Notes under the pieces: model-generated
What the model was told of the DNA's origin: nothing
What the model saw: only the letters and a program-made list of their open reading frames with translations
Databases searched by the model: none
DNA from: Piscicola geometra
Lineage: Eukaryota > Annelida > Clitellata > Hirudinida > Piscicolidae
NCBI GenBank assembly: GCA_943735955.1
Contig: OX030965.1
Span: 1,226,701 to 1,290,700, forward strand
Length of the DNA: 64,000 nucleotides
Direction: 5' to 3'
Position numbers and translations under genes: made by a program
Shown: one piece after another, positions 6,401 through 61,056 of the stretch
How positions within the stretch are numbered: position 1 is the stretch's first letter
Layout: each line of letters starts with the position of its first letter

Positions 6401-7271
<871 letters not shown>

Positions 7272-9080
7272 CATACATACATACATACATACATACATAC
7301 ATACATACATACATACATACATACATACATACATACATACATACATACATACATACATACATACATACATACATACATACATACATACATACATACATAC
7401 ATACATACATACATACATACATACATACATACATACATACATACATACATACATACATACATACATACATAAATACATACATACATACATACATACATAC
7501 ATACATACATACATACATACATACATACATACATACATACATACATACATACATACATACATACATACATACATACATACATACATACATACATACATAC
7601 ATACATACATACATACATACATACATACATACATACATACATACATACATACATACATACATACATACATACATACATACATACATACATACATACATAC
7701 ATACATACATACATACATACATACATACATACATACATACATACATACATACATACATACATACATACATACATACATACATACATACATACATACATAC
7801 ATACATACATACATACATACATACATACATACATACATACATACATACATACATACATACATACATACATACATACATACATACATACATACATACATAC
7901 ATACATACATACATACATACATACATACATACATACATACATACATACATACATACATACATACATACATACATACATACATACATACATACATACATAC
8001 ATACATACATACATACATACATACATACATACATACATACATACATACATACATACATACATACATACATACATACATACATACATACATACATACATAC
8101 ATACATACATACATACATACATACATACATACATACATACATACATACATACATACATACATACATACATACATACATACATACATACATACATACATAC
8201 ATACATACATACATACATACATACATACATACATACATACATACATACATACATACATACATACATACATACATACATACATACATACATACATACATAC
8301 ATACATACATACATACATACATACATACATACATACATACATACATACATACATACATACATACATACATACATACATACATACATACATACATACATAC
8401 ATACATACATACATACATACATACATACATACATACATACATACATACATACATACATACATACATACATACATACATACATACATACATACATACATAC
8501 ATACATACATACATACATACATACATACATACATACATACATACATACATACATACATACATACATACATACATACATACATACATACATACATACATAC
8601 ATACATACATACATACATACATACATACATACATACATACATACATACATACATACATACATACATACATACATACATACATACATACATACATACATAC
8701 ATACATACATACATACATACATACATACATACATACATACATACATACATACATACATACATACATACATACATACATACATACATACATACATACATAC
8801 ATACATACATACATACATACATACATACATACATACATACATACATACATACATACATACATACATACATACATACATACATACATACATACATACATAC
8901 ATACATACATACATACATACATACATACATACATACATACATACATACATACATACATACATACATACATACATACATACATACATACATACATACATAC
9001 ATACATACATACATACATACATACATACATACATACATACATACATACATACATACATACATACATACATACATACATAC
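7272..9080. repeat. Almost perfect (CATA)n microsatellite, 1.8 kb
   Basis: About 452 copies of a tetranucleotide with a single substitution seen (position 7472, C to A). All six frames stay open in places, giving apparent proteins of more than 600 residues (MYVC or IHTY repeats) that are artefacts of the repeat. The left flank is slightly degenerate (ACACACGTG), and the right end stops abruptly at TTAACAGG. Confidence 0.98.
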
Positions 9081-16627: not shown

Positions 16628-17053
16628 GTTAAGAATTGCCACATCATTAGACCCCCGATTTAAAAAAATTTACATGTCTTTAAACAAATGAAAGAGTTGA
16701 AGAAAGATAAGAAAACCTTTAAAACTACACACTGTATACTATCTTCTGAATAGTATTCAGCCTTCACCAAAGAAGTGACTATGAATAAATGTAACTTCAG
16801 ATTCTGAAAATGAAGATACTTCAATGGCAACGAAATCTATCATTTAAAGTATAGAAAAGAATCTGAGGTGGGCTTTGAGAGTTGTTCTTTAGTTTGGTGG
16901 CAACAACACGAAGGGACATATTCGGCTCTTGCGAAACTGGAAGGAAAGTACTTGTCATCTTCTGCAAGTACAGTTCCATGTGAACGTCTATTCAGCTTGT
17001 CAGGACACATAGTTAGCAAGAAAAAAGTCTTTTTAGATCCAACTAATATTTAA
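16628..17053 (+). pseudogene. hAT transposase fragment in element E
   Basis: The plus strand reads ATSLDPRFKK at about 16640. Later come WWQQHEGTYSALAKLEGKYL and STVPCERLFSLSGHIVSKKK, the classic LAKLARRYL...SxxSERxFSxAGxIVxxKR dimerisation region of hAT transposases. The N-terminal BED finger and most of the catalytic region are missing and frames are broken, so this is a deletion derivative. Confidence 0.85.
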
Positions 17054-17282
17054 AACTTGTTTGTTTGAGTAACTGGCTCAAAAATTATGTGTAACAATTG
17101 CATTTTTTTCATTTTTATACATAATATCTGATAGAACTTCTATAAAAGTTTTAATTTTTTTAAAAAATACTGTTTTATACTAACGTCAAATATGCTAAAA
17201 TCATTGCGTTAAAATACGATTAACGGCGATTAAAATTTTTATTCGTGGAACAGCTCTACTTAAATTACATAACAAGATACTA

Positions 17283-19334
17283 CCCTGTGAACATTCTATA
17301 TGGGCCTATATGGGTCCCATATGGGCTAAATGGGCTAAGGGTAATCAATATGGGTCCTATATGGGTCCTATATGGGCTTCGTGGGCTAGAGATTATCTAT
17401 ATGGGCCCTATATGGGTCCTATATGGGCTAAATGGGCTTTAAAAAAGAATAAAATTTAACGTGTTTTTAAAGAAAACCCTATTTGGGAAGTATATGGGTC
17501 CTAAATGGGCTGAATGAGCTTTGAATAATAATAAAAGTTAAAGTGTTTTTATGGAAAACCTATATGGGTCCTATATGGGTCCTATATGGGCTAAATGGGC
17601 TTTAAAAAAAATAATGATTCTAAGTGTTTTCAAAGAAAACCTATTTGGGAAGTATATGGGTCCTATATGGGCTAAATGGGCTTTGAATAACAATAAAAAT
17701 TAAAGTGTTTTCATGGAAAGCCTATGTGGGTCCTATATGGGTCCTATATGGGCTAAATGGTTTTTGAATAATAAAAAAAGTTTAAGTGTTTTCAAGGAAA
17801 GCCTATGTGGGTCCTATATGGGTCCTATATGGGCTAAATGGGTTTTGAATAATAAAAAAAAGTTTAAGTGTTTTTATGGAAAGCCTATGTGGGTCCTATA
17901 TGGGTCCTATATAGGCTAAATGGGCTTTGAATAATAAAAAAAGTTCAAGTGTTTTCAAGGAAAGCCTATGTGGGTCCTATATGGGTCCTATATGGGCTAA
18001 ATGGGCTTTGAATAATGAAAAAAGTTGTAGTGTTTTCATGGAAAGCCTATGTGGGTCCTATATGGGTCCTATATAGGCTAAATGGGCTTTGAATAATAAA
18101 AAATGTTTAAGTGTTTTCATGGAAAGCCTATGTGGGTCCTATATGGGTCCTATATGGGCTAAATGGGTTTTGAATAATAAAAAAAGTTTAAGTGTTTTCA
18201 AGGAAAGCCTATGTGGGTCCTATATGGGTCCTATATGGGCTAAATGGGCTTTGAATAATGAAAAAAGTTGAAGTGTTTTCATGGAAAGCCTATGTGGGTC
18301 CTATATGGGCTAAATGGGCTTTAAAAAATAAAAATGCTTAGTGTTTTCAAGGAAAGCCTATGTGGGTCCTATATGGGTCCTATATGGGCTCAATGGACTT
18401 TGAATTAGTGTAACATATGGCCATGGTTTTTGTAAAATACTTTTAATTTTTTTATTTTAGTCATTTGAATTTATTATCTCTTTTATTTTAGAAATGTTAT
18501 CTTCTGTTGTAATTATTTAAAAAGTATTTGTCTATAAAAGTCATTTTGGTTTCTTATTAAAGTTGTTAAAAAAATTCTCATTATTAAATATTAATATTAA
18601 AAAATTTAAAGCTATGCAAATAATTATTCAATAGTTCAACAAACTTTTCGAAACCCCACAAGTTGTAATCAATGTATTCAATATCTATATAAGATACCAG
18701 CCCTTTTATTAATATATGTAATGACAAAAAAGAGCCGGTTAGCCCTCCCCTTTACCAGAACAAATGAAACCATGGTATATAATTCATCAATAAGTTATTC
18801 GCAACTCCAACATACAGAAGAGAAATCAAAGTACACGTTTCCAAATTAAAAAAGCAAGCCAAGCAAAATTCAAAAAATAATAATCTTGAAGAATCCGATT
18901 AATTATATTTTTTATATTTGGACTATTTTTCTTACATCTTTAAATTTATGTTTGGCAGAAATATTTTAATTGCTTTTTATAAAAATAAATAATTTATCAA
19001 TCAATCATGTGTTGCCCATATAGCCCATATGGGACCCACTTAATTTGGTGTAGCATTTTGACATGGGTCCCATATGGGCTGCCCACATAGGGCCTATATG
19101 GGCTGCCCATATAGGGCCCATATGGGCTGTCCATATAGGGCCCATATGGGCTGTCCATATAGGGCCCATATGGGCTGCCCATATAGGGCCCATATAGTTG
19201 CCCATATAGCCCATATGGGACCCACGTAAATCGGTGTAGCATTTTGACATGGGTCCCATATGGGCTGCCCATATGGGGCCCATATAGTTGCCCATATGGG
19301 ACCCATATAGGTCCCATATAGAATGTTCACAGGG
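17283..19334. mobile_element. Inverted-repeat element built from TATATGGG tandem units, TSD TA
   Basis: It begins CCCTGTGAACATTCTATATG and ends with the inverse, CATATAGAATGTTCACAGGG, each flanked by TA. The left 1.1 kb is an array of about a dozen units of about 81 bp, each with one or two TATATGGGTCC words, a GGGCTAAATGGGCTT block and an AT-rich linker ending GTGTTTTCAAGGAAAGCC. About 600 bp of unique AT-rich centre follows. The right 330 bp is an inverted array of shorter GCCCATATAGGGCCCATATG-type units. No transposase is seen. The TA TSD and inverted ends suggest a non-autonomous DNA element mobilised in trans. Confidence 0.75.
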
Positions 19335-19365
19335 TATGTTCAATATCCTATATAAACTATAGTTG

Positions 19366-29425: not shown

Positions 29426-32400
29426 TCACGAATACTCGCCGTTCAGACTCCTCCCAATCACCAGCTTCCTTATTTCAGTCGTTCCAGCGCCTATCTCGTA
29501 CAACTTGGCGTCCCTGAGGAAGCGACCAGTGGGGTAGTCGTTGATGTAGCCGTTGCCTCCTGGTTGTTTGAGGGAAGGTTGTTTGAGGGAAGGTTGTTTG
29601 AGGGAAGGTTGTTTGAGGAAAGGTTGTTTGAGGGAAGGTTGTTTGAGGGAAGGTTGTTTGAGGGAAGGTTGTTTGAGGGAAGGTTGTTTGAGGGAAGGTT
29701 GTTTGAGGGAAGGTTGTTTGAGGGAAGGTTGTTTGGAGGGAAGGTTGTTTGGAGGGAAGGTTGTTTGGAGGGAAGGTTGTTTGGAGGGAAGGTTGTTTGA
29801 GGGAAGGTTGTTTGAGGGAAGGTTGTTTGAGGGAAGGTTGTTTGAGGGAAGGTTGTTTGGAGGGAAGGTTGTTTGGAGGGAAGGTTGTTTGAGGGAAGGT
29901 TGTTTGAGGGAAGGTTGTTTGAGGGAAGGTTGTTTGAGGGAAGGTTGTTTGAGGGAAGGTTGTTTGGAGGGAAGGTTGTTTGAGGGAAGGTTGTTTGAGG
30001 GAAGGTTGTTTGAGGGAAGGTTGTTTGAGGGAAGGTTGTTTGAGGGAAGGTTGTTTGAGGGAAGGTTGTTTGAGGGAAGGTTGTTTGAGGGAAGGTTGTT
30101 TGAGGGAAGGTTGTTTGGAGGGAAGGTTGTTTGAGGGAAGGTTGTTTGAGGGAAGGTTGTTTGGAGGGAAGGTTGTTTGGAGGGAAGGTTGTTTGAGGGA
30201 AGGTTGTTTGGAGGGAAGGTTGTTTGAGGGAAGGTTGTTTGGAGGGAAGGTTGTTTGAGGGAAGGTTGTTTGGAGGAAAGGTTGTTTGAGGGAAGGTTGT
30301 TTGAGGGAAGGTTGTTTGAGGGAAGGTTGTTTGAGGGAAGGTTGTTTGGAGGGAAGGTTGTTTGGAGGAAAGGTTGTTTGAGGGAAGGTTGTTTGAGGGA
30401 AGGTTGTTTGAGGGAAGGTTGTTTGAGGGAAGGTTGTTTGAGGGAAGGTTGTTTGAGGGAAGGTTGTTTGAGGGAAGGTTGTTTGGAGGGAAGGTTGTTT
30501 GGAGGGAAGGTTGTTTGAGGGAAGGTTGTTTGGAGGGAAGGTTGTTTGAGGGAAGGTTGTTTGGAGGGAAGGTTGTTTGAGGGAAGGTTGTTTGGAGGGA
30601 AGGTTGTTTGAGGGAAGGTTGTTTGGAGGGAAGGTTGTTTGAGGGAAGGTGGGTAGGAAGAGATTATAAAGAAGTCATAGTTTATTGATTGATTGATTGA
30701 GAAACAGGAACAGCTAGAGACAAGTAGAGAATTGGGTTCACGAACCCAGGAGCTGGATGGCATCGAGAGCACACATTGTCGCCATCTCTGCTGTGTACAA
30801 AATGACAGCTGCGCAGTCCTGTGGGTTAAAGTGAGAGTTTCTTTTATTGATTTTGTTTGGTGGCGTGTTGGAGTGGATGCTGCATGCATTGTTTGGGGAT
30901 GCCAGTTTGAAAGAGACACCTTGGAGGCGAGGTGTCCCTTGTCAAGGGCTCTAGCGATGGAGTAGAGGTAGGCGCGGGAGGTGTTGAGACGCACGTACAT
31001 GTCTGCCAACTTCGCCTGCACCATCTGCAGGGGTGCTCTAGAGTAGATTCAACCCTGATGGTGCTGTCCTGCTTGCACTCGCCTGGAAGGTGCCAATCCT
31101 CGCTCCAAACGCCTGTCTGTCGTGTGCATACTTGAAGGCCACGTCGCAAGCCGCCTGCATCAGACTGAAAAGATGATCTGTCGTTCACGAAAGGAACAGT
31201 CATTGGAAGCGACGAAAGGTATGAAAGACGAACCCAATGGGTCCTGCAGACAAGACCAGTCTTTCAATGTCGAGGCCACTCATCAGCACCTGCAATGGAG
31301 GCGAGTCACTGCAGTCCTCAATGCAGCGAACATGCCACTTTTCTCAAATACAAACCTTGACTCCTTTGTTGAGGGGGCCCACCAGATGACTCTCTGAGAA
31401 AGTTTGCGCCATGGACTCAACCAAATAGATTTATAAATTCTTTTTTTTGAGTTGAGAAATATTTGTTGATCGAGCGCACGCACCAGGCACGATGCAGTCC
31501 TCGAAGACGAGTTCACAAGTGCCCGAGCCTCGCATTCCCAGTTTGTCGAGTTTGGGAGACGTGCTGAAGCCTGGCATGCCCTGGTGTTGGAGTGGCAATG
31601 GTGGTGCTGCAATGGTGGTGGTGTGATGGTGAAACTGACAAAGGTGGATGATTGAGATGTGGAGAAGACATGGCTTGTGGCAAGTCTGAAGCAGGACCTT
31701 CTCGATGAGGAAGGCAGAGATGCCGTGCTGAGGCTTCGCGGAGGAGGGGTCAGTCTTGGCGTACACCACCAAGACGTCTGCCACTGGACCGTTCGTGATC
31801 CAGAACTTGCTGCCGTTGATGACGTACGAGTCGCCTGCAGGTTGAAATGGTGTCCATAACTTGTTGAATATGCATGAAGTCAAAAAAATTTTGCATACTA
31901 ATTGAAACTGAATGGAGTGAGTGTGGTGAGGTGGAAGGATGGAGTGAGTGTGGTGAGGTGGAAGGATGGAGTGAGTGTGGTGAGGTGGAAGGATGGAGTG
32001 AGTGTGGTGAGGTGGAAGGATGGAGTGAGTGTAGTGAGGTGGAAGGATGGAGTGAGTGTGGTGAGGTGGAAGAATGGTGTAAGTGTGGTGAGGTGGAAGG
32101 ATGGAGTGAGTGTGGTGAGGTTGAAGAATGGAGTAAGTGTGGTGAGGTTGAAGAATGGTGTAAGTGTGGTGAGGTTGAAGAATGGAGTGAGTGTGGTGAG
32201 GTTGAAGAATGGAGTGAGTGTGGTGAGGTGGAAGGATGGAGTGAGTGTAGTGAGGTTGAAGAATGGAGTAAGTGTGGTGAGGTTGAAGAATGGAGTGAGT
32301 GTGGTGAGGTTGAAGAATGGAGTGAGTGTGGTGAGGTTGAAGAATGGAGTGAGTGTAGTGAGGTTGAAGAATGGAGTAAGTGTGGTGAGGTTGAAGAATG

Positions 32401-35400
32401 GAGTGAGTGTGGTGAGGTTGAAGAATGGAGTGAGTGTAGTGAGGTTGAAGAATGGAGTAAGTGTGGTGAGGTTGAAGAATGGAGTGAGTGTGGTGAGGTG
32501 GAAGAATGGTGTAAGTGTGGTGAGGTTGAAGGATGGAGTGAGTGTAGTGAGGTTGAAGAATGGAGTAAGTGTGGTGAGGTTGAAGAATGGAGTAAGTGTG
32601 GTGAGGTTGAAGAATGGAGTGAGTGTGGTGAGGTTGAAGAATGGAGTAAGTGTGGTGAGGTTGAAGAATGGAGTGAGTGTGGTGAGGTTGAAGGATGGAG
32701 TGAGTGTGGTGAGGTTGAAGGATGGAGTAAGTGTGGTGAGGTGGAAGAATGGTGTAAGTGTGGTGAGGTTGAAGGATGGAGTAAGTGTGGTGAGGTTGAA
32801 GGATGGAGTGAGTGTGGTGAGGTTGAAGGATGGAGTGAGTGTGGTGAGGTTGAAGAATGGTGTAAGTGTGGTGAGGTTGAAGAATGGAGTAAGTGTGGTG
32901 AGGTTGAAGGATGGAGTGAGTGTGGTGAGGTTGAAGAATGGAGTAAGTGTGGTGAGGTTGAAGAATGGTGTAAGTGTGGTGAGGTTGAAGAATGGAGTGA
33001 GTGTGGTGAGGTTGAAGAATGGAGTAAGTGTGGTGAGGTTGAAGGATGGAGTAAGTGTGGTGAGGTGGAAGGATGGAGTAAGTGTGGTGAGGTGGAAGAA
33101 TGGAGTAAGTGTGGTGAGGTTGAAGGATGGAGTGAGTGTGGTGAGGTGGAAGGATGAAGTGAGTGTGGTGAGGTTGAAGAATGGTGTAAGTGTGGTGAGG
33201 TTGAAGAATGGTGAGGTTGAGGAATGGTGTAAGTGTGGTGAGGTTGAAGAATGGTGAGGTTGAGGAATGGTGTAAGTGTGGTGAGGTTGAAGGATGGAGT
33301 GAGTGTGGTGAGGTTGAAGAATGGTGTAAGTGTGGTGAGGTTGAAGGATGGAGTGAGTGTGGTGAGGTTGAAGAATGGAGTGAGTGTGGTGAGGTTGAAG
33401 AATGGAGTGAGTGTGGTGAGGTTGAAGAATGGAGTAAGTGTGGTGAGGTTGAAGGATGGTGTAAGTGTGGTGAGGTGGAAGGATGGAGTAAGTGTGGTGA
33501 GGTTGAAGGATGGTGTAAGTGTGGTGAGGTTGAAGAATGGAGTGAGTGTGGTGAGGTTGAAGGATGGAGTGAGTGTGGTGAGGTTGAAGGATGGTGTAAG
33601 TGTGGTGAGGTGGAAGAATGGAGTGAGTGTGGTGAGGTGGAAGGATGGTGTAAGTGTGGTGAGGTGGAAGGATGGAGTAAGTGTGGTGAGGTTGAAGGAT
33701 GGTGTAAGTGTGGTGAGGTTGAAGAATGGAGTGAGTGTGGTGAGGTGGAAGAATGGAGTAAGTGTGGTGAGGTTGAAGGATGGAGTGAGTGTGGTGAGGT
33801 TGAAGGATGGAGTAAGTGTGGTGAGGTTGAAGAATGGAGTGAGTGTGGTGAGGTTGAAGAATGGAGTGAGTGTGGTGAGGTTGAAGAATGGAGTAAGTGT
33901 GGTGAGGTTGAAGAATGGTGTAAGTGTGGTGAGGTTGAAGAATGGAGTAAGTGTGGTGAGATTGAAGAATGGAGTAAGTGTGGTGAGGTGGAAGGATGGT
34001 GTAAGTGTGGTGAGGTGGAAGGATGGAGTAAGTGTGGTGAGGTGGAAGGATGGTGTAAGTGTGGTGAGGTGGAAGGATGGAGTGAGTGTGGTGAGGTTGA
34101 AGAATGGTGTAAGTGTGGTGAGGTTGAAGAATGGAGTGAGTGTGGTGAGGTTGAAGAATGGAGTAAGTGTGGTGAGGTGGAAGGATGGTGTAAGTGTGGT
34201 GAGGTTGAAGAATGGTGTAAGTGTGGTGAGGTTGAAGAATGGAGTAAGTGTGGTGAGGTGGAAGGATGGAGTAAGTGTGGTGAGGTTGAAGAATGGAGTA
34301 AGTGTGGTGAGGTGGAAGGATGGAGTAAGTGTGGTGAGGTTGAAGGATGGAGTAAGTGTGGTGAGGTTGAAGAATGGAGTAAGTGTGGTGAGGTGGAAGG
34401 ATGGAGTAAGTGTGGTGAGGTTGAAGGATGGTGTAAGTGTGGTGAGGTTGAAGAATGGAGTGAGTGTGGTGAGGTGGAAGGATGGTGTAAGTGTGGTGAG
34501 GTTGAAGAATGGTGTAAGTGTGGTGAAGTGGAAGAATGGTGTAAGTGTGGTGAGGTTGAAGAATGGAGTAAGTGTGGTGAGGTTGAAGAATGGAGTAAGT
34601 GTGGTGAGGTTGAAGAATGGTGAGGTTGAAGAATGGTGTAAGTGTGGTGAGGTTGAAGGATGGAGTGAGTGAGAGAGACTAAGCAGTGGAGGTGTGTGCT
34701 TGTTGTCACTGGAGACGCTAACCCTTCTTGATGGCCGTAGTTCTCATCGACACCACGTCTGATCCTGCAGCGTTCATCAAGTAAATCAAATCTTAGTTGG
34801 CAGGATAAGATAAATTCGGCACTATAATACGAAGGAGCATATCCGACTCTTGATAAATTCGGCACTATAATACGAAGGAGCATATCCGACTCTTGATAAA
34901 TTCGGCACTATAATCCACCAACTCGTCCTCCCATCAGGCTCATTCCATAGAATTTCGACCAAAATAAATTCAATTTTACACCCCCCCCCTCAGAAATGTA
35001 TGAAACTTTTATATAATGCTTAGATACATTGTTTATCAAAATGAAAAATATAAAAATGCAATTTTTCAAAAGGTCGCCGAGTTATTGACCTTCAAAGTTC
35101 GCCTAGGTCAAAACCCCATCTCTATTCAACTTGAAATATCTCAGCCTATATTTATCAGAACAAATAATGCAATATACCGAATAAAGGCATTTGAATGTTC
35201 TATTTAAACATAAATTAATGGTTTAATTATAATATAATATTTTTTAGAGGTCAAAAGTTTGACCTTGAAATTTTTGATGTTGCCCCATATATTTTGTCAA
35301 TTTTTTTTCTCGTAACATTTTTCAAACATTCCTTCAATCATATAAAAAAAATTAAAAAGGTCCTATTTAAGAAAATATTTTTAATCAATTTTTTTCTTGA

Positions 35401-38400
35401 GCACCTAACAAACAATATTTTGTCAAAACAGCATAGGAGTGCTCATGCATAATTTATTTTTAGAGACAAAAATTAATGAATTTAGTAAATCTCAATAAAT
35501 ATTTAAGTTGACAAAATATATGGGGCAACATCTAAAATTTCAAAGTCAAACTTTTGACCGCCAAAAATGTTATATTATATTTAAACCATTAAATTATGTT
35601 TCTGCGTGAGGCAATCTATTGCCATGCTAGAAAAGGTGTGCATGCAATTGCACGCATGTTCATGGAGGGCGTTTGAGGCAGGAGACTGTTTCCTCCACAA
35701 GTGATAACTCCAGTGAATGCCAAACAGTCTGCTTTCTCATACACCTCCAATGAACACTGGTGGATTGGAAAGATGCAATCGCTCTGCTTTGAAACTCTCT
35801 CATTCTTCATGGCACTTGAATGTTTCATATGCAATCATCTTTATTATTAGCTTAGTAAATTGACAGCACTGTTCTAGGCAGACAAAATGGTGCTGATGAA
35901 GCATTCACAACACATAATATCGCCAAGACGCGAGCCTTCAAAGCACACAAAGACAATGCAGCATGCAGACGACACAGAGCACGCAGTTCAAGCAAAGCCT
36001 CACCTGCGTTGTGCTCGCTCATCGCCAGTGCGCCCACGTGCTCACCCGAGCACAACTGAGGGGCAGGCGTTGAGGAGTGAGTCACGATGACGGTGGTGAC
36101 GATTAAGTTTGAGTGATACAAAACCCACCTTGGGCAGGTACTTGCTCTTTTGCTCTGAGGTGCCGTACCTGTCAACGTTTCAACCCAGAATCATAACGTG
36201 GTTTGCCTAGAGCCCGACTCATTTAGAGCCCGCCTCCAATTCAAAATGATTTCAATGAGCCTTCAACGAACTTGTGGACAAACAATTTAAAGAAACGAGA
36301 TTACCGATCTAAAATTCAGACATTTATATATGAATATTCGCATATATAATGTATTTATTATGCATATTATTTGCATACTTATTATACATATTATTTGCAT
36401 TCGATGCGTGCTCGAATCGCGAATACCCGCATATTAAACAGAAGTGGAGGCAAGCTCTAGACTCACCACGTGCCACAATATTGCTACTAAACTAAATCAG
36501 TTTTTTAAACTCGATAAAAACATTTTAATTTACAAAGGCAACCGTTATGGCGCCTACCGAGATGAATGTATAGCATGCGGCACTTGCACGAGCTCCACTA
36601 GCATTATGGAATTCATTGTTGATGCATTGTCGACTGACTGACCGGTTGATCTGGTTGACGCAGAGGTTGGAGTGGGCGCCGTACGAGAGGCCAATGGAGC
36701 CACTCGCTCGCGACATCTCCTCCATCACGATGCAGTGGTCCAGGTAGCTACCGCCCGTGCCTCCAAACTCTTCTGCGAAGGAGGGGAATGAATGCTCTTT
36801 GCAAGCACTGAGAGGAATGAGAGTCTGTGCTGCATGATTCTTGAATTTTTCATCAAAGCAAATATTAAAGTCATAAAGACAATGCCACCAAGCAACTCTT
36901 AATTGAATCGACAAATGCTGCTGCTTCATGAACGCCTCTTCTTGTCAATTATGGTAGCGGAGATGGCTTAGATGGTAGACGTCGGACTTGCAACTTAAAG
37001 GTCGCCAGTTCGAATCCCTGACAAGCAACCTTGAACTATCCTATACCTAGTGTATGTTTGCAACGAATGAATTAAAAGATGTGTACGTCGTGTGGAGTGG
37101 CGTCTCTGGCGCATGAGGACTAGAGGTTGGACCGGGTACCTGCGGGACTCCCGCGGGAACGGGAATGAAAATTAATTTCGGGACGGGAAAAGTCGGGAAC
37201 CGGGAATAGGTTTTCGGAACGGGAACGGAAATCAATATTCAAATCGGGAACGGGAATATACTTTGAAATCGGGAACGGGAAAAACGGGAATAAAAGTTAT
37301 TGGGAGTGGATTTTTCAACAATTATACTTCAGCAGACTCCTAAGTATGAAAATCTTTATTTCATCGATAATCCGTACTTAAAATAAGTATTAAATGCAAT
37401 AGAAATGTATAATGAAGTCACCATTGCGATGTCAATGTCAAAATCTCTAACATGACATTTGAAGTTGTTATGGCGAGTCCAAATATTAGGGAAATTAGAA
37501 CAAATGGGTGAGGATGAAAACTTGTCAGATGAAATCAAACTGGTCAGTTATATTATTTTTATTTTATAAATTCATACTTTGAATTTGAATTATTAAATTC
37601 CAGTTGAATGCTCAGTTGATCATTTTGACAAAAAAAGATGCCCATTAATAATAATAATGACGAGCATTGTTATAGTGGCGTATAACCCGAACGGCTTCCA
37701 GGCCACTTAGGCTGCATATTTTCACTTGCACCTTTAGGTTACTAGGGCATTGGTTGCACTTGAAACTAGGACCTTTCATTATTGGTCAAGCCGAGAGTCG
37801 TTGCCGACTCAGCTACCCGTTCATTCACTCAGCTACCCGTTCACCCATTGATCTTATTCATATGGCAGCATGTCTGTTGCATCCCCCGGTATAAAAAAAA
37901 TAATATTTAAAATGTTTGGGATAGAAAAAAAATAAATACCACGATTTTCATTGAAGAAACTTTAATTCCATTTTGTACCGCCAGACCAAGCTCCAGTGAC
38001 GTTGAGAAAAAAAAACAAATGATGGTTATTTATACCCTATATGTTAGTTTTTATAACATAAAAATTATAATACAATTTTTTTACTATCAAATTATACGAA
38101 TGATTTTATTTTTGCAGTTGTGGAGAATAAGAATGTTGTCAAAAAACATATTTCTAACATTTTTGAAAAATTAATAATAATGAACGACGGAATAGATTCA
38201 GAAGAGGATGAATTTTACAAATATTCACAATTACGTCCCACCAAAATTGAAGATTACAAAGATGTTAAATCTATTGGAGTAAAAAAATTCCAATACTACA
38301 AGAAGTAGCCAAAATTTTGTTTAGTATGCCTGCAAGTTCTATTCCTTGTGAACGGAATTTGTCAACATGTGGTCGTTTAACTTCAGACCCAAGATCGTCT

Positions 38401-43708: not shown

Positions 43709-43730
43709 TTGTGTGTGTGTGTGTGTGTGT
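43709..43730. repeat. (TG)n microsatellite
   Basis: About 10 TG units at the edge of an inverted-repeat-element fragment. Confidence 0.85.
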
Positions 43731-43880
43731 CAAAATGATACACTAAATTAAGTGGACCCATATGGGCTATTTCCGTGTGGGTCTTTTTTGGGCTATTTCT
43801 AAGTGGGCTACCTGTATAGCACATACGCTCAAACTTTTAAACATGAACACATGACTGATTGAAAAAAATTATTGTTAGAA
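43731..43880. repeat. Fragment related to the 17.28-19.33 kb element
   Basis: GTCAAAATGATACACTAAATTAAGTGGACCCATATGGGCTAT and the following AACACATGACTGATTGA correspond, in reverse orientation, to about 18985-19070 of the inverted-repeat element. The array of units is missing. Confidence 0.65.
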
Positions 43881-44396: not shown

Positions 44397-47300
44397 CAAT
44401 AACTAATGATTTGTATAGCGCGGGGCACCGTAGATTCGTTTTCGTCTGGGATCTTACAGCTCAGGAAGTTTCATACTTCTTTCAAGGATGCTCTTGATTG
44501 CCGACCACGTGACAGACTGTGGTTGCTCGCCTTGGCTTGCGGTGAGTGCGGCTTTGTCTGCCGCCTCGTTACCTTGAACACCAGTGTGTCCAGGAATCCA
44601 CTGTACTGTCAACTCATTGCTTCGGCTGGCTCTCATGAGATCCTCTTTTGTCTTACTGAGCTGCGGATCGTCGAATCTTGCTGCGTTCCGTAGACTTTCG
44701 ACACTTCCTTTACTGTCGGTGAAGATGGTCGCTCTGCCTGGCTGGTGCTCAACGATCCACTTTGCTGCTAAGCTGATGGCTCGGAGTTCAGCATCATGGG
44801 CTGTACAGAGTACCCCTGCTGCTTCCATCCAGACGTCACTAACCACCTCACCCTCCATAACCACCACTGCACTTCCACCATTCTTGTTGTTGTCACCTAC
44901 AGACCCATCAGTGTAAATGACCACTCCCCCTTCCTGCTTACGTAGCATAATTGTTTTCTCAAAATCAGCCTGGAGCACCTCTTTTGAAGACTTTTTGTTG
45001 GCTCCATCTGAGAGTTCACTGCACAGCTGAAGTGCAAGTGCCTCCTCCCATGGTTTAGGTCTGATGCGAGTAAAGGGTTCTCGAAAGGCATCATTGCCTG
45101 TGATCTGGGCCAATGCACTTCTGGAATCCTCTTGCCAGCCTTTGTTTCGCTTGAAGCGGTTCGGAACATGCTTGTCAGCTGTCACACGTAGTGGGTGGTG
45201 TTCATCCATCCTCAGCGTTCTCTCATAGGCTCTCAAAGTCAGCATACAACCCTTAATCCTTGCCGGCACAATGTCCGCCTCCCGCCACACTGCTTCATCG
45301 GGGCATGTCTTGGTTAGCCCAGCGATGATTTTTGCCGCTCTCTTCTGTTCCCTTTCCAGAAGATCAAATTTGGAAGCACTTATCCAGGGCATCCAGCTGG
45401 CGGCAGCATACCAGAGTACTGACTCCACCGTGGCGTTGTAGACCTTCTTCAGTGTCGCAAATTCACATCCCCAGTCCTTACCAGTGAGTGCTGCGATCAC
45501 CTTAGTCCTTTCACGCATGGATGCTGCACCAATTGGACGTGCTTACCAAAATTGAGACCATTGTCGATTGTCACACCGAGAAACCTACAGTGGCTGCTGA
45601 AACGCAATTGCTTGTGACAAACCACGACCGAAAGGATAACTTTCCAGTCTTTGTTGTAGCTGCTGCATACAATTCCTTCTGATTTGTCTGCGTTCAGTTC
45701 CACCTTGTTGGCTTTTGTCCAAGCTTCCACACTCTTGATCACAGACTGCACCCTGGATGCCGCTTCATTGATCGTCTTGCTCGTGGCCCAGACTGCGATG
45801 TCATCTGCGTAGCCACTGATCTGCACTTCCGCAGTATCTTCCCTGAGCAGGTCACTGGTGTAGAGAAGGAAAAGGATCGGGGACAACACAGCTCCCTATG
45901 GCAGGCCCTATGTCATCTTTTTCCACTTGCTCTCACCGTCACCAAGACGAACCATTGCTTTGCGGTCTTCCAGGAAGCATTTGACCCATTCAAGCATCCT
46001 CAGCGGCATCTTGAGGTCGTTCAGCTTCATTTGCAGTCTTTCCCGCCATACACGGTCGTAGGCTTTGCTGCAATCAAGTAATGCTGCGACGGTTCTTTTT
46101 GTCGGTGTGGATTGGAAGCCATCGTAGATGTCCTGTGACAAGCGCATGCAGTGTTGCTCCGTTGATTTCAAACGTTGGAAACCAAGTTGCCACGGCTGTA
46201 TGATGGAGTTTGCTTCTAGCCAGTAACCCAACCTGTTGGCAAGCATTCTTTCCATGACTGCATAGGACTGAGGTGAGGCTTATGGGTCTATATGACTCCA
46301 CGCAGTCTGCCGGCTTTCCTGTCTGTAGAAGCGGAATAATTACTGCTTTCTTCCACTTTCCTGGGACTGTTCCCTGTAGCCAGGACTCGTTGCAGATTTT
46401 TAGCAGGATGATGAGCATGTTTCGTGGCAAGTGGCTCAACATTGGCGGTTCGATCTTGTCGTTACCACCCTTTTTGGTGTCGTCTTGTTGAGCGATCTCT
46501 GCCTGAAGCTCTGACATCGTTAGCCGTTGATCCATCTCTGTGGACGCCTCTTGACTCTGTCTCTGCTTGATCTTCCGAGCATTTTCATTCCTGAGCAGGC
46601 GTTCCTCTTTGTTGAGGACGAGTTTGCTGACATCTGCATAATGCTCTGCGAAGGCTGCTGCCTTTTGCTTGTCAGTAACTCGCATCACGCCCTTGAAATT
46701 GAGCATCTCATTTTTGGCCTTCACCCCCCCATGCCCGTTCATTTTCCTGATGTAGGACCACAGCTTCCGTTGGTCGTCACCTTCTCTCAGTTTTTCCACC
46801 CTCTCACGCCAGTATTTCTTCTTCTGCTCTGCAATCTCCTTCCTCCATTCGAGGTTGATACGCGTGGTCTCCTCTGTGTTTCCACTGCGTATGGATTGCT
46901 GTCTCTGGCGTTCGAGTGCGTCGAGAGCAGGGCTCCAGAACGGCTTGTTGTGGTTGCTGGCTTTCTTCATCGGCACTGCAGCTTTAGCGGCCTGAATGAC
47001 TTGATTAGAGAACCAGTTTTCCTTCTTCACCAGCGTCAGACCTTCTGGCATGGTTTGTGCTTCGAGGATTTGTTGGAACTTTTCCCAGTCTGCCCGTTTC
47101 CATGCCCAGCTCAAACGTACTTCTTGAAGTTTTCGTTTATGGGCTTTGTCGACTTGGATGACAATTGGAAAGTGGTCTGAGCTTAACGCTCTTTTCATTT
47201 TCCATGTCATCTGGTGTGCCAATTCGAGGCTGGCCAACGAGACATTAGGAGAAACAGTTGTGCCTGAAACTCTGCTGAGGTGGGTGTGTTCTGACGGCTT

Positions 47301-48604
47301 GTTGAGGACCTGATAGTCGTGTCTTGCGCACCATAGCTCCACTTGTAACGCTTCTTCGTTGCTAGTAGCGTTTGAATCCCAGCTGGGTAAGTGGATGCTG
47401 AGGTCAGCGCAGATCAGGTGGTCCTTGGCAGGTTTCAGCTTCTCGGTGATCTCCTCCCGCCTGGACTCATCCTGTGTGTTTCTCAGGGGAGGCTTGTAGA
47501 GATTTGTCAGTCGGATACATTCTTCGTTCTCCAGCCATACTTCCACCGTGATTTCTTCAATCAGGCTGTTGTGGCTCATGCTGACTTTTTTGAAGCTGAG
47601 GTCTTCTTTCACGAGAGTGAGTAGTCCGCCTCTTCTTCGTTCTGCCGAGTTCCTCAAGTATGTCCTGTCTTGCCTCACCGTGCTGTAGCCCTTGAGACCC
47701 TCGAACCGCGTGTGCTCATTGAGCTTTGACTCTTGCATCAGCACCACGTCGATATCCTCCTTCTGCAGCCATCTCTCCAGCTCATACTGCTTCGGCGTAA
47801 TCCCATCAGCATTCCACTGGCAAATTCTTATCCTTCTTCTCCCAACCATAGCACTGGTTTGCTTGGTTTGGACAGTGTGCGTTGGTCTGTTAACGATTGC
47901 TGCAGCGGGTCTTTTTGCGTTTTGGCATCCTCGGCACGTCCAGAGGTCCCATGAGATTGTGGCCCATGTGCTTCTTGCATCTTCTGAACAGGCTTCTTTC
48001 TGGTGGAACCATCGTGAGCAGCTCTTACAATGAGGCATCACTGCTGCTCTTCTGATTCGGCCTCTACACTTGGCACACTGACTTCCCTTCCATTCCGCTG
48101 GGTTGGTTGGGTTAGGAGGGTCACCCTGCTCTTCTTCTTCTTCTTGTGGCGGGTTTAGTCTGCATAGTCGGCCACATCGCCAAAGCTTGTTGTCGTCCTT
48201 CATGTAGGAGTCCATCCACGCCCTTGTCAACCCAGTGCACTTTTTGTGGAAGTATTTCTGGCAGCTTCCGCACACCATCGGCGTCGTACCGTTACGGATT
48301 GTTTCACTGCAACTTCCACATTAAGGTCCTTGGTTGGGGTGAACATCACCGGCTCTTAGGATGAGATTAAGCCAGAAGACATACGCCGGTTTATGTTCTC
48401 TGGCCTCGAAAAACCCATCTTTGTGTTGATTTTGTTTGTTGTTGCGCTTTCTCCTTGAGAGAGGGGTGGAGAGGTGGCGCTTTTGAGGTCCTCTTCGTGC
48501 CAGAAGGCAGCCAACGACGCCACGTGAAGGCGGGACCATATAGCCGTTGGGTTGTTGTTGTTGACCCATGTAGATAATCCATTTAGCCCATTTAGCGTGT
48601 TCAC
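44397..48604 (-). mobile_element. Nearly full-length LINE of an RNase H-bearing (I-like) clade
   Basis: A 4.2 kb non-LTR retrotransposon. On the minus strand it has a short 5' leader, PHD/RING-like fingers, an APE-type endonuclease, RT and RNase H. A very short 3' UTR ends GCGCTATACAAATCATTAGT and (ATTG) units. It lies in a hAT relic on its 3' side. Its 5' edge shows CCCTGTGAACA...AAATGGGCTAAATGG, similar to the end of the 17.3 kb inverted-repeat element, so that edge may be flank rather than LINE. Confidence 0.9.
44454..48569 (-). pseudogene. LINE polyprotein: fingers, endonuclease, RT, RNase H (broken)
   Basis: Order on the minus strand. An N-terminal segment (48569-48324) ends AGDVHPNQGP and one in-frame TAA. 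In the same frame come Cys/His fingers (CGSCSETIRNGTTPMVCGSC, about 48320-48260; CAKCRGRIRR...WFHQ). The endonuclease follows (RICQWNADG, LMQESK, SSDHFPI). The RT reads ESYRPISLTSVL, a frameshift near 46260, then LLDCSKAYDRVW, two TAG codons in the GLP..GAVLSP loop near 45900, then GYADDIAVW with intact catalytic Asp-Asp. A frameshift near 45500 precedes RNase H (VIYTDGSVGD, DAELRAI, IFTDSKGS, PGHTGVQGNEAAD, with catalytic acids visible). Two frameshifts and three stops make it inactive but young enough to read throughout. Confidence 0.92.
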
Positions 48605-48608
48605 AGGG

Positions 48609-52562: not shown

Positions 52563-52740
52563 GTTCTAAGATAAAAAGTCTTCCGGATAAAAGTCTTCGG
52601 ATAAAAAGTCTTCGGATAAAAAGTCTTCAGAATAAAAAGTCTTCCGGATAAAAAGTCTTTCGGATAAAAAGTCATCCGGATAAAAAGCCTTCAGGATAAA
52701 AAGTCTTCCGGATAAAAAGTTTTCAGGATAAAAAGTCATC
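52563..52740. repeat. 16-17-bp minisatellite, left inverted block
   Basis: About 10 copies of GGATAAAAAGTCTTCC-type units. The same unit occurs in reverse complement at 53933-54055. Confidence 0.9.
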
Positions 52741-59719: not shown

Positions 59720-60585
59720 TATCAAAAGCAGATGAAAAATCAAGGCATACAGATTTATGAAAGTTTTTTGGTTTAACCGTTTAAGGATTTTGTTAAATAG
59801 TTTGTCTTCTGATCCAATAATTTAGTTTTTTTAAACTTAAAATAATAATTATTATTATAATATATATCTTTTCTTGATTTTTTGGTTTTTAAATTTATCG
59901 TTTGCCAAATCTTGCTCTCGTAAATAAAATCTTCAACCAATAACTGCCTAACGGACTACAATAAGAACTTATTTTAAAAGAAAGAAGTGCCAAGGCATCA
60001 AATTGAGCACCTGTGCACAGCTTGCAAGCACCCACTGGCTACCTACTTCACAAGGCAGATGAGCTCTGCAGATGAAGGACAGACTGCCAGAACAAATCTT
60101 CTACACATGACTGTGTTTATGTCTATTCTCTTTTCAAAACTGGTCTAGCTCAATGTTTTAAAATTGACCCACTTAAATTTGAACTTTTCTTTTTTGAAGA
60201 AAATGGTAAACTATTAATGATCCATGTGATTTTTTCTCTCATACTATTGTTCCATCTAATCATAGTCGTAGCTTAGGATTTATTTCTTTCCAAAACTAAC
60301 CTTATCAAACCAAATTCTATTTGTTACTGAATCTTGCTATTTTCATCTCAGGCAATTATTACCTTACTTAGATGACCCTTCTTTAAAGATGTTAGTTTCT
60401 GCACTTTTTCTTTCTCAATCAATCAATCATATAGATTTCTATAGCGCTCTTCATCAAATTCAAGAGCGCAAATTCAAAATCTCGAATTGACTATTATAAT
60501 TCACTATTATAATTTACTTGAAAATACTTTAAAGCTATTTTAATTATGCAGCTAGAATCGTTAGCCGTACTCATATTTATCATCA
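59720..60585. other. Intergenic DNA with one hairpin-tail fragment
   Basis: Mostly unassigned. At 60416-60472 there is a minus-strand copy of the hairpin and (ATTG)n tail (AGCGCTCTTCATCAAATTCA in the given strand). Confidence 0.5.

Positions 60586-61056
<471 letters not shown>

Follow-up and report, generated by a model that had tools for sequence, protein, structure and literature searches.

A Minisatellite-Armed Mobile Element in Piscicola geometra and Its CMC-Clade Transposon Family

Results

The DNA analyzed here, referred to as the window, is a 64-kb stretch of the Piscicola geometra genome (GenBank assembly GCA_943735955.1, contig OX030965.1, positions 1,226,701–1,290,700 of the forward strand). 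All coordinates are positions in this window, and labels of the form L0xx denote loci fetched from elsewhere in the genome. A repeat-rich block at 17283–19334 is a real mobile element with exact ends, 2052 bp long and on the plus strand. Its terminal 20 bp are identical in inverted orientation (17283–17302 and 19315–19334), just as a sequence-only reading of the window had described them, and in 100 shuffled versions of the window, end matches averaged 0 with up to 3 mismatches tolerated. Alignment of the two ends extends the inverted match to about 44/45 bp with a single 1-base gap, defining a 44-bp 5′ terminal inverted repeat (17283–17326, plus strand) and a 3′ repeat of 45 bp with one extra base (19290–19334, minus strand). 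The dinucleotide TA flanks the element on either side (17281–17282 and 19335–19336) and reads as the two copies of a target duplication. Between the ends lie a 5′ subterminal arm made of an 81-bp array (17397–18405, plus strand), 338 bp of filler (18438–18775, plus strand), a gene remnant (18776–19010, plus strand), and a 3′ subterminal arm (19011–19334) that holds a 24-bp array. The 81-bp array is placed first, which is the direction of gene transcription in full-length copies.

The 171-Mb genome (66 contigs) contains the 22-bp terminus, at 2 or fewer mismatches, 94 times in forward and 93 times in reverse orientation, and the reversed-pattern control is absent (0 matches). The ends are therefore common to other copies, and the element is dispersed, as had been proposed. 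We examined 41 copies, comprising the window copy and L041–L080, which were picked from places matching the terminus or the element. Thirty-seven are complete; L070, L072, L076, and L077 have no recognizable end. The middle region of the window copy was matched at 40 of 40 scored places (105 candidates at first look). Identical 2-bp flanks border 35 of the 37 complete copies and comprise ten different dinucleotides: TA (10), AA (9), TT (6), AT (3), AC (2), and CA, AG, CG, GT, and TG (1 each). Agreement over 3 bp is found in just 2 of the 37. L060 and L061 have identical flanks and were therefore counted as a single insertion; when L061 is omitted, 34 of 36 copies carry a 2-bp duplication, versus a chance expectation of 6.7. 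Because matched flanks occur in 35 of 37 copies and in ten sequences, the TA that the sequence-only reading noted on both sides is indeed present but is not special, being one example of a generic 2-bp target duplication. A TA-specific target, as in Tc1/mariner and similar elements, was rejected, since TA makes up only 10 of the 35 duplications and nine other dinucleotides occur.

Empty sites were sought by joining the flanks of each copy with one copy of the target and comparing the result with the fetched DNA. Uninterrupted counterparts were found for L080 in L024 (92% over 184 bp), for L059 in L065 (88% over 167 bp), for L060 at 60504–60615 of the window (85% over 123 bp), and for L068 at 16912–17106 of the window (83% over 195 bp). 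Poorer matches were obtained for L065 against L059 (78%, the alignment being gapped next to the junction) and for L047 against the window (79%). The match of L044 to L011 reaches 99% over 132 bp, yet L011 is L044's own locus, and the match is an adjoining stretch of the 16-bp minisatellite that holds the L044 insertion; arrays resembling this target minisatellite (L039 and window positions 52570–52740) give matches of 86–91%. Such paralogous, rather than allelic, empty sites, a check that had been suggested from the outset, confirm the element boundaries. The repeat-rich composition of the block could be taken to indicate a satellite or minisatellite that merely resembles an element, but the dispersed copies with the same ends, the target duplications, and the empty sites refute this idea and leave it with next to no probability.

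The family is a recently active, cut-and-paste transposon family. In the middle region, nine copies differ from the window copy by 1.0% or less (22 of the 37 copies are comparable), and a group of 12 copies, with L060 and L061 (2.7–2.9%) included, has a mean pairwise divergence of 0.9%, gaps uncounted. L041 and L042 are 98.9–99.0% identical to L043 over a 4.04-kb interior. Several copies with middle regions about 86% identical to that of the window element lie within 176 kb at G000:C2:2724873–2900404 and look as if they were carried by large duplications. L068 is an insertion of the family into a copy of an open frame that lies at 16814–17053 on the plus strand of the window and presumably resembles the C-terminal end of a hAT transposase.

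Three full-length copies, L041, L042, and L043 (6185, 6251, and 6274 bp), share the ends and arms of the window element and carry gene 1 followed by gene 2 on the strand that places the 81-bp array first. Among the 37 complete copies, only these three match the coding interior (E 1e-5). Positions 18363–18437 and 18776–19010 of the window copy match the full-length form, the latter segment retaining, in three pieces with 81–93% matches, what is left of the 3′ end of gene 2 and its downstream DNA. Between these segments, the 338-bp filler stands in for 4.06 kb that in the full-length form comprise gene 1 and most of gene 2. The filler has no match in L041–L043 and is also absent from L045; it is matched over at least 200 bp in 31 of the 37 complete copies and partially in L054 (111 bp) and L069 (183 bp). 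The window element has thus kept the ends and arms of the coding copies and lost the transposase gene, and it is almost certainly a deletion derivative of a CACTA/EnSpm-Mirage-Chapaev (CMC) clade transposon. A further copy, L083, is diverged; the DNA fetched there includes the 3′ arm with its terminus and a portion of the 81-bp array but not the 5′ terminus. Its gene 2 region holds a 17-bp minisatellite of 21 copies (L083:8379–8741), and a much shorter run resembling it lies in the gene 2 intron of L043. L081 and L082, two more distantly related loci of this genome, showed no recognizable terminus or TATATGGG array, and their inverted repeats gave no clear ends.

Gene 1 is a CMC-clade transposase, as judged by its motif and by a predicted fold of the RAG1/Transib type. 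Its stop-to-stop frame spans 713 codons in L041 and 735 in L043 and is split in L042; one stop falls inside the gene 1 match in L041 and four in L042. The motif D-D-C(2)C-H(3)H-E is present, in agreement with the definition D-D-C(2)C-H(3–4)H-E given for CMC/Transib transposases in the accessible part of one account (PMC12730594). In an alignment of 46 proteins, D313, C332, C335, H530, H534, and E554 are invariant, and D235 is at least 90% conserved. The predicted structure has a RAG1/Transib-like catalytic fold, and DUF4218 was detected in 44 of the 46 relatives. Because of this transposase in the full-length relatives, the family is placed in the CMC clade, and the earlier statement that no named family fits no longer holds. 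Fold comparison alone predicts a BAH-like tail at about residues 591–710 of the L043 protein; Pfam BAH was not found in any of the 46 relatives. Relatives are present in Holothuria, Hydra, Nymphon, and fish, and the named relatives of gene 1 point to an animal host. A search of DNA from other species with the transposase alignment confirmed 0 of 40 pattern matches in viral_contigs and 0 of 15 in genome_contigs.

Gene 2 lies downstream of gene 1 and has several exons. Its spliced protein, for which the exon 3 junction was placed by hand, matches Pfam PF16064 (DUF4806) at 31.2 bits, above the cutoff of 25, and in L043 the domain is interrupted by an intron. A BEN fold is predicted for a fish relative of the gene 2 protein. 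At E 0.001, none of 955 candidates proved homologous to the spliced protein. With the final 400 residues of the relative P0065 as query, 4 homologues emerged from 7997 scored, and two of these, P0123 and P0124, gave no DUF4806 match. Searching solved structures by sequence brought up no useful hit for gene 2. The DUF4806 model had no match in the genome; 14 of 14 controls were missed as well, so this result is no evidence of absence. Literature searches, whose coverage excluded most subscription papers, found none that joins CACTA elements with DUF4806 and none that links the BAH domain, transposases, and CACTA; DUF4806 is named in four papers. DUF4806 numbers 69 and 54 in two Hydra species and 0–6 in five other genomes, according to the accessible table of one study (PMC7642931).

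The 81-bp array in the left arm, which the sequence-only reading had identified, comprises 12.6 copies with 86% matches. Its TATATGGG sites lie in a single orientation, with 28 forward and 0 reverse in the left arm. Across the window, TATATGGG occurs 40 times versus 1.9 expected, and 37 of the 40 occurrences fall inside the element. The right arm carries the 24-bp array (19069–19219; 6.4 copies, 90% matches), and the last 500 bp of the element contain TATATGGG once forward and eight times reverse, together with nine CCCATATGGG near-palindromes. The repeated motif is therefore present in both subterminal regions, an arrangement like that of En/Spm. The expectation of an inverted array sharing the core motif was borne out for the array and the motif, but the right array is not the mirror image of the left, and outside the 44/45-bp ends the two arms have little in common except the motif. 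Within the 81-bp unit, column conservation is 0.966 in the motif part versus 0.904 in the spacer (Mann–Whitney p 0.008; 398 units from 36 complete copies, L061 left out). The arrays are subterminal arms and are best read as repeated binding sites that would be used by the element's own proteins, which makes the early suggestion of multiple transposase sites plausible.

Two other views of the arms bear on this reading. A Foldback-type element acting through long hairpin arms would fit arms that are internally repetitive and a right arm with strong self-folding as single-stranded DNA (z −10.4). The left arm, however, folds weakly (first 330 bp, z −2.7), the transposase has the CMC motif, and pairing between the arms is limited to the 44/45 or so end positions that they have in common, so that a long hairpin between them, which had also been suggested, is unsupported and the Foldback explanation is very improbable. 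Alternatively, the arrays of this same transposon may have arisen incidentally, through slippage or unequal exchange close to the ends, and play no part in binding, the terminal 22–45 bp alone being of consequence. Unit number does range widely, from 4 to 20 anchors per 5′ arm, and clean 2-bp duplications likewise flank such short-array copies as L049, L052, and L064. Against this stand the sharing of the core motif by both arms despite their different units, its retention in the 5′ arm of all 37 complete copies, the greater conservation of motif columns than of spacer columns, and a BEN-type protein encoded by the family. We consider a by-product origin unlikely, though well short of negligible.

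Elsewhere in the window, positions 43730–43769 (minus strand) hold a degraded piece of a 3′ arm of this type. Read by eye, it is a diverged reverse complement of right-arm positions 19021–19061, which makes the fragment first reported at 43.73 kb real. The possible fragment at 48.55–48.61 kb proved to be one related terminus, at 48589–48608, but with 3 mismatches in 20 it belongs to a diverged element (48536–48608, minus strand). This 73-bp stretch has one other, weaker genome match, or two matches counting itself. Adjoining that CCCTG-type terminus are the remains of a non-LTR (long terminal repeat) retrotransposon with RNase H and endonuclease domains (44457–48320, minus strand). On the minus strand, 31434–36944 includes fragments of a gene for acyl-CoA dehydrogenase that encode its middle and N-terminal domains, and a 100-copy 27-bp array (31910–34620) separates them. 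Very long, near-perfect tetranucleotide arrays of TTGA (128 copies) and CATA (452 copies) occupy 6402–6912 and 7272–9080.

Discussion

Our results allow a mechanism to be proposed. The transposase would cut at the CCCTG..CAGGG termini and insert the element into targets with a 2-bp stagger. The window copy, being a deletion derivative without the transposase gene, would have to be moved in trans. The BEN-type gene 2 protein, perhaps together with the transposase, may bind TATATGGG and CCCATATGGG of both arms as a multimer. Once bound, it could bring the two element ends together, and it would probably also control the gene 1 promoter beside the 81-bp array. In maize Spm, TnpA binds subterminal sites, pairs the ends, and touches the promoter. 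By analogy with TnpA, we give roughly even chances to a gene 2 protein that binds the arms and holds the ends together, probably with contact to the gene 1 promoter. The explanation as a whole, an internally deleted, nonautonomous CMC-clade transposon with cutting, movement in trans, and reading of the arms as proposed, is in our judgment quite probable.

Several observations weigh against parts of this account. Two complete copies depart from the target rule: the flanks of L042 (TT/TG) are not duplicated, and L069, flanked by CA/AC, is damaged at one end. The conservation gap between motif and spacer may stem partly from the alignment of an A-rich spacer. The element's own DUF4218 match, at 25.8 bits, is just below the Pfam cutoff of 27, and Transposase_21 (tnp2), detected in 2 of the 46 relatives (best E 0.0011), was not found in the protein of the element itself. 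The BEN model was made on the fish relative, not on gene 2 itself, Foldseek relates it to BEN chains with weak E-values (0.19 at best), and DUF4806 falls below the cutoff in the relatives P0065, P0121, and P0122.

It may also be the transposase, or else a host protein, that reads the arms, with the gene 2 protein otherwise employed, for instance in escape from silencing or in chromatin targeting. The BAH-like tail of the transposase model is compatible with this view, as is the description of BEN proteins as chromatin and transcription factors in the accessible parts of two reports (PMC6317261, PMC11075544). BEN domains are, however, described in one of these as binding short palindromes (PMC6317261), the right arm is an array of palindromes, and this division of labor seems on balance improbable. 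The BEN domain of NAC1 is stated to select ACATGT in the available portion of another report (PMC7764960). Returning to the gene 2 protein as the reader of the arms, we tentatively envisage an animal CMC lineage with its own BEN-domain protein that would read expanded minisatellite arms, beside a transposase with a BAH-like tail. The protein would be a TnpA-like partner that arose independently of the plant one, and on this view many of the DUF4806 (BEN) genes in Hydra and fish would belong to transposons or be domesticated from them.

These data recast an odd minisatellite block as a mobile-element system that has a defined target rule and in which short copies coexist with full-length partners. 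The pairing of a BEN-type protein with a repeated palindromic site is a concrete, testable proposal, and the DUF4806 expansion in Hydra may have its source in elements of this sort. With the transposase model comes a further relative of the RAG1 fold, one whose predicted tail is like that of a chromatin reader.

Among known systems, the family belongs to the CMC/Transib clade by its transposase. It resembles the CMC clade (CACTA/EnSpm, Mirage, and Chapaev, with Transib/RAG1) in the transposase motif, the predicted RAG1/Transib-like fold, and DUF4218 in relatives, and it differs in carrying a DUF4806 gene. EnSpm elements, as far as the accessible text describes them, have CAC..GTG termini and a 3-bp target duplication (PMC12730594). 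The family has CCCTG..CAGGG termini and 2-bp duplications (35 of 37), and because it lacks both EnSpm features it is not filed as EnSpm/CACTA proper. PlavakaA of fungi belongs to the same clade and shares 2-bp duplications, but its termini are TGT..ACA, and the accessible portion of its description mentions no DUF4806 protein (PMC12730594). Maize En/Spm with TnpA likewise has short-motif subterminal arrays at both ends, a second element-coded protein, and deletion derivatives moved in trans, as would be the case here. In the present family, by contrast, the second protein is DUF4806/BEN-like, the arrays are long minisatellites, and binding is a proposal. Foldback and Galileo, the latter a P superfamily member, have internally repetitive arms in the descriptions accessible to us; here the inverted repetition between the two arms is not long, covering about 44/45 bp. 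The BEN proteins Insv, BANP, and BEND6 share with gene 2 the fold predicted for its relative and palindromic sites. They differ in that gene 2 is transposon-encoded and fused to a different N-terminal part, and the putative site here is CCATATGG rather than CCAATTGG. A BEN-type gene and a transposase tail that is BAH-like in the structural model make this family a variant worth following.
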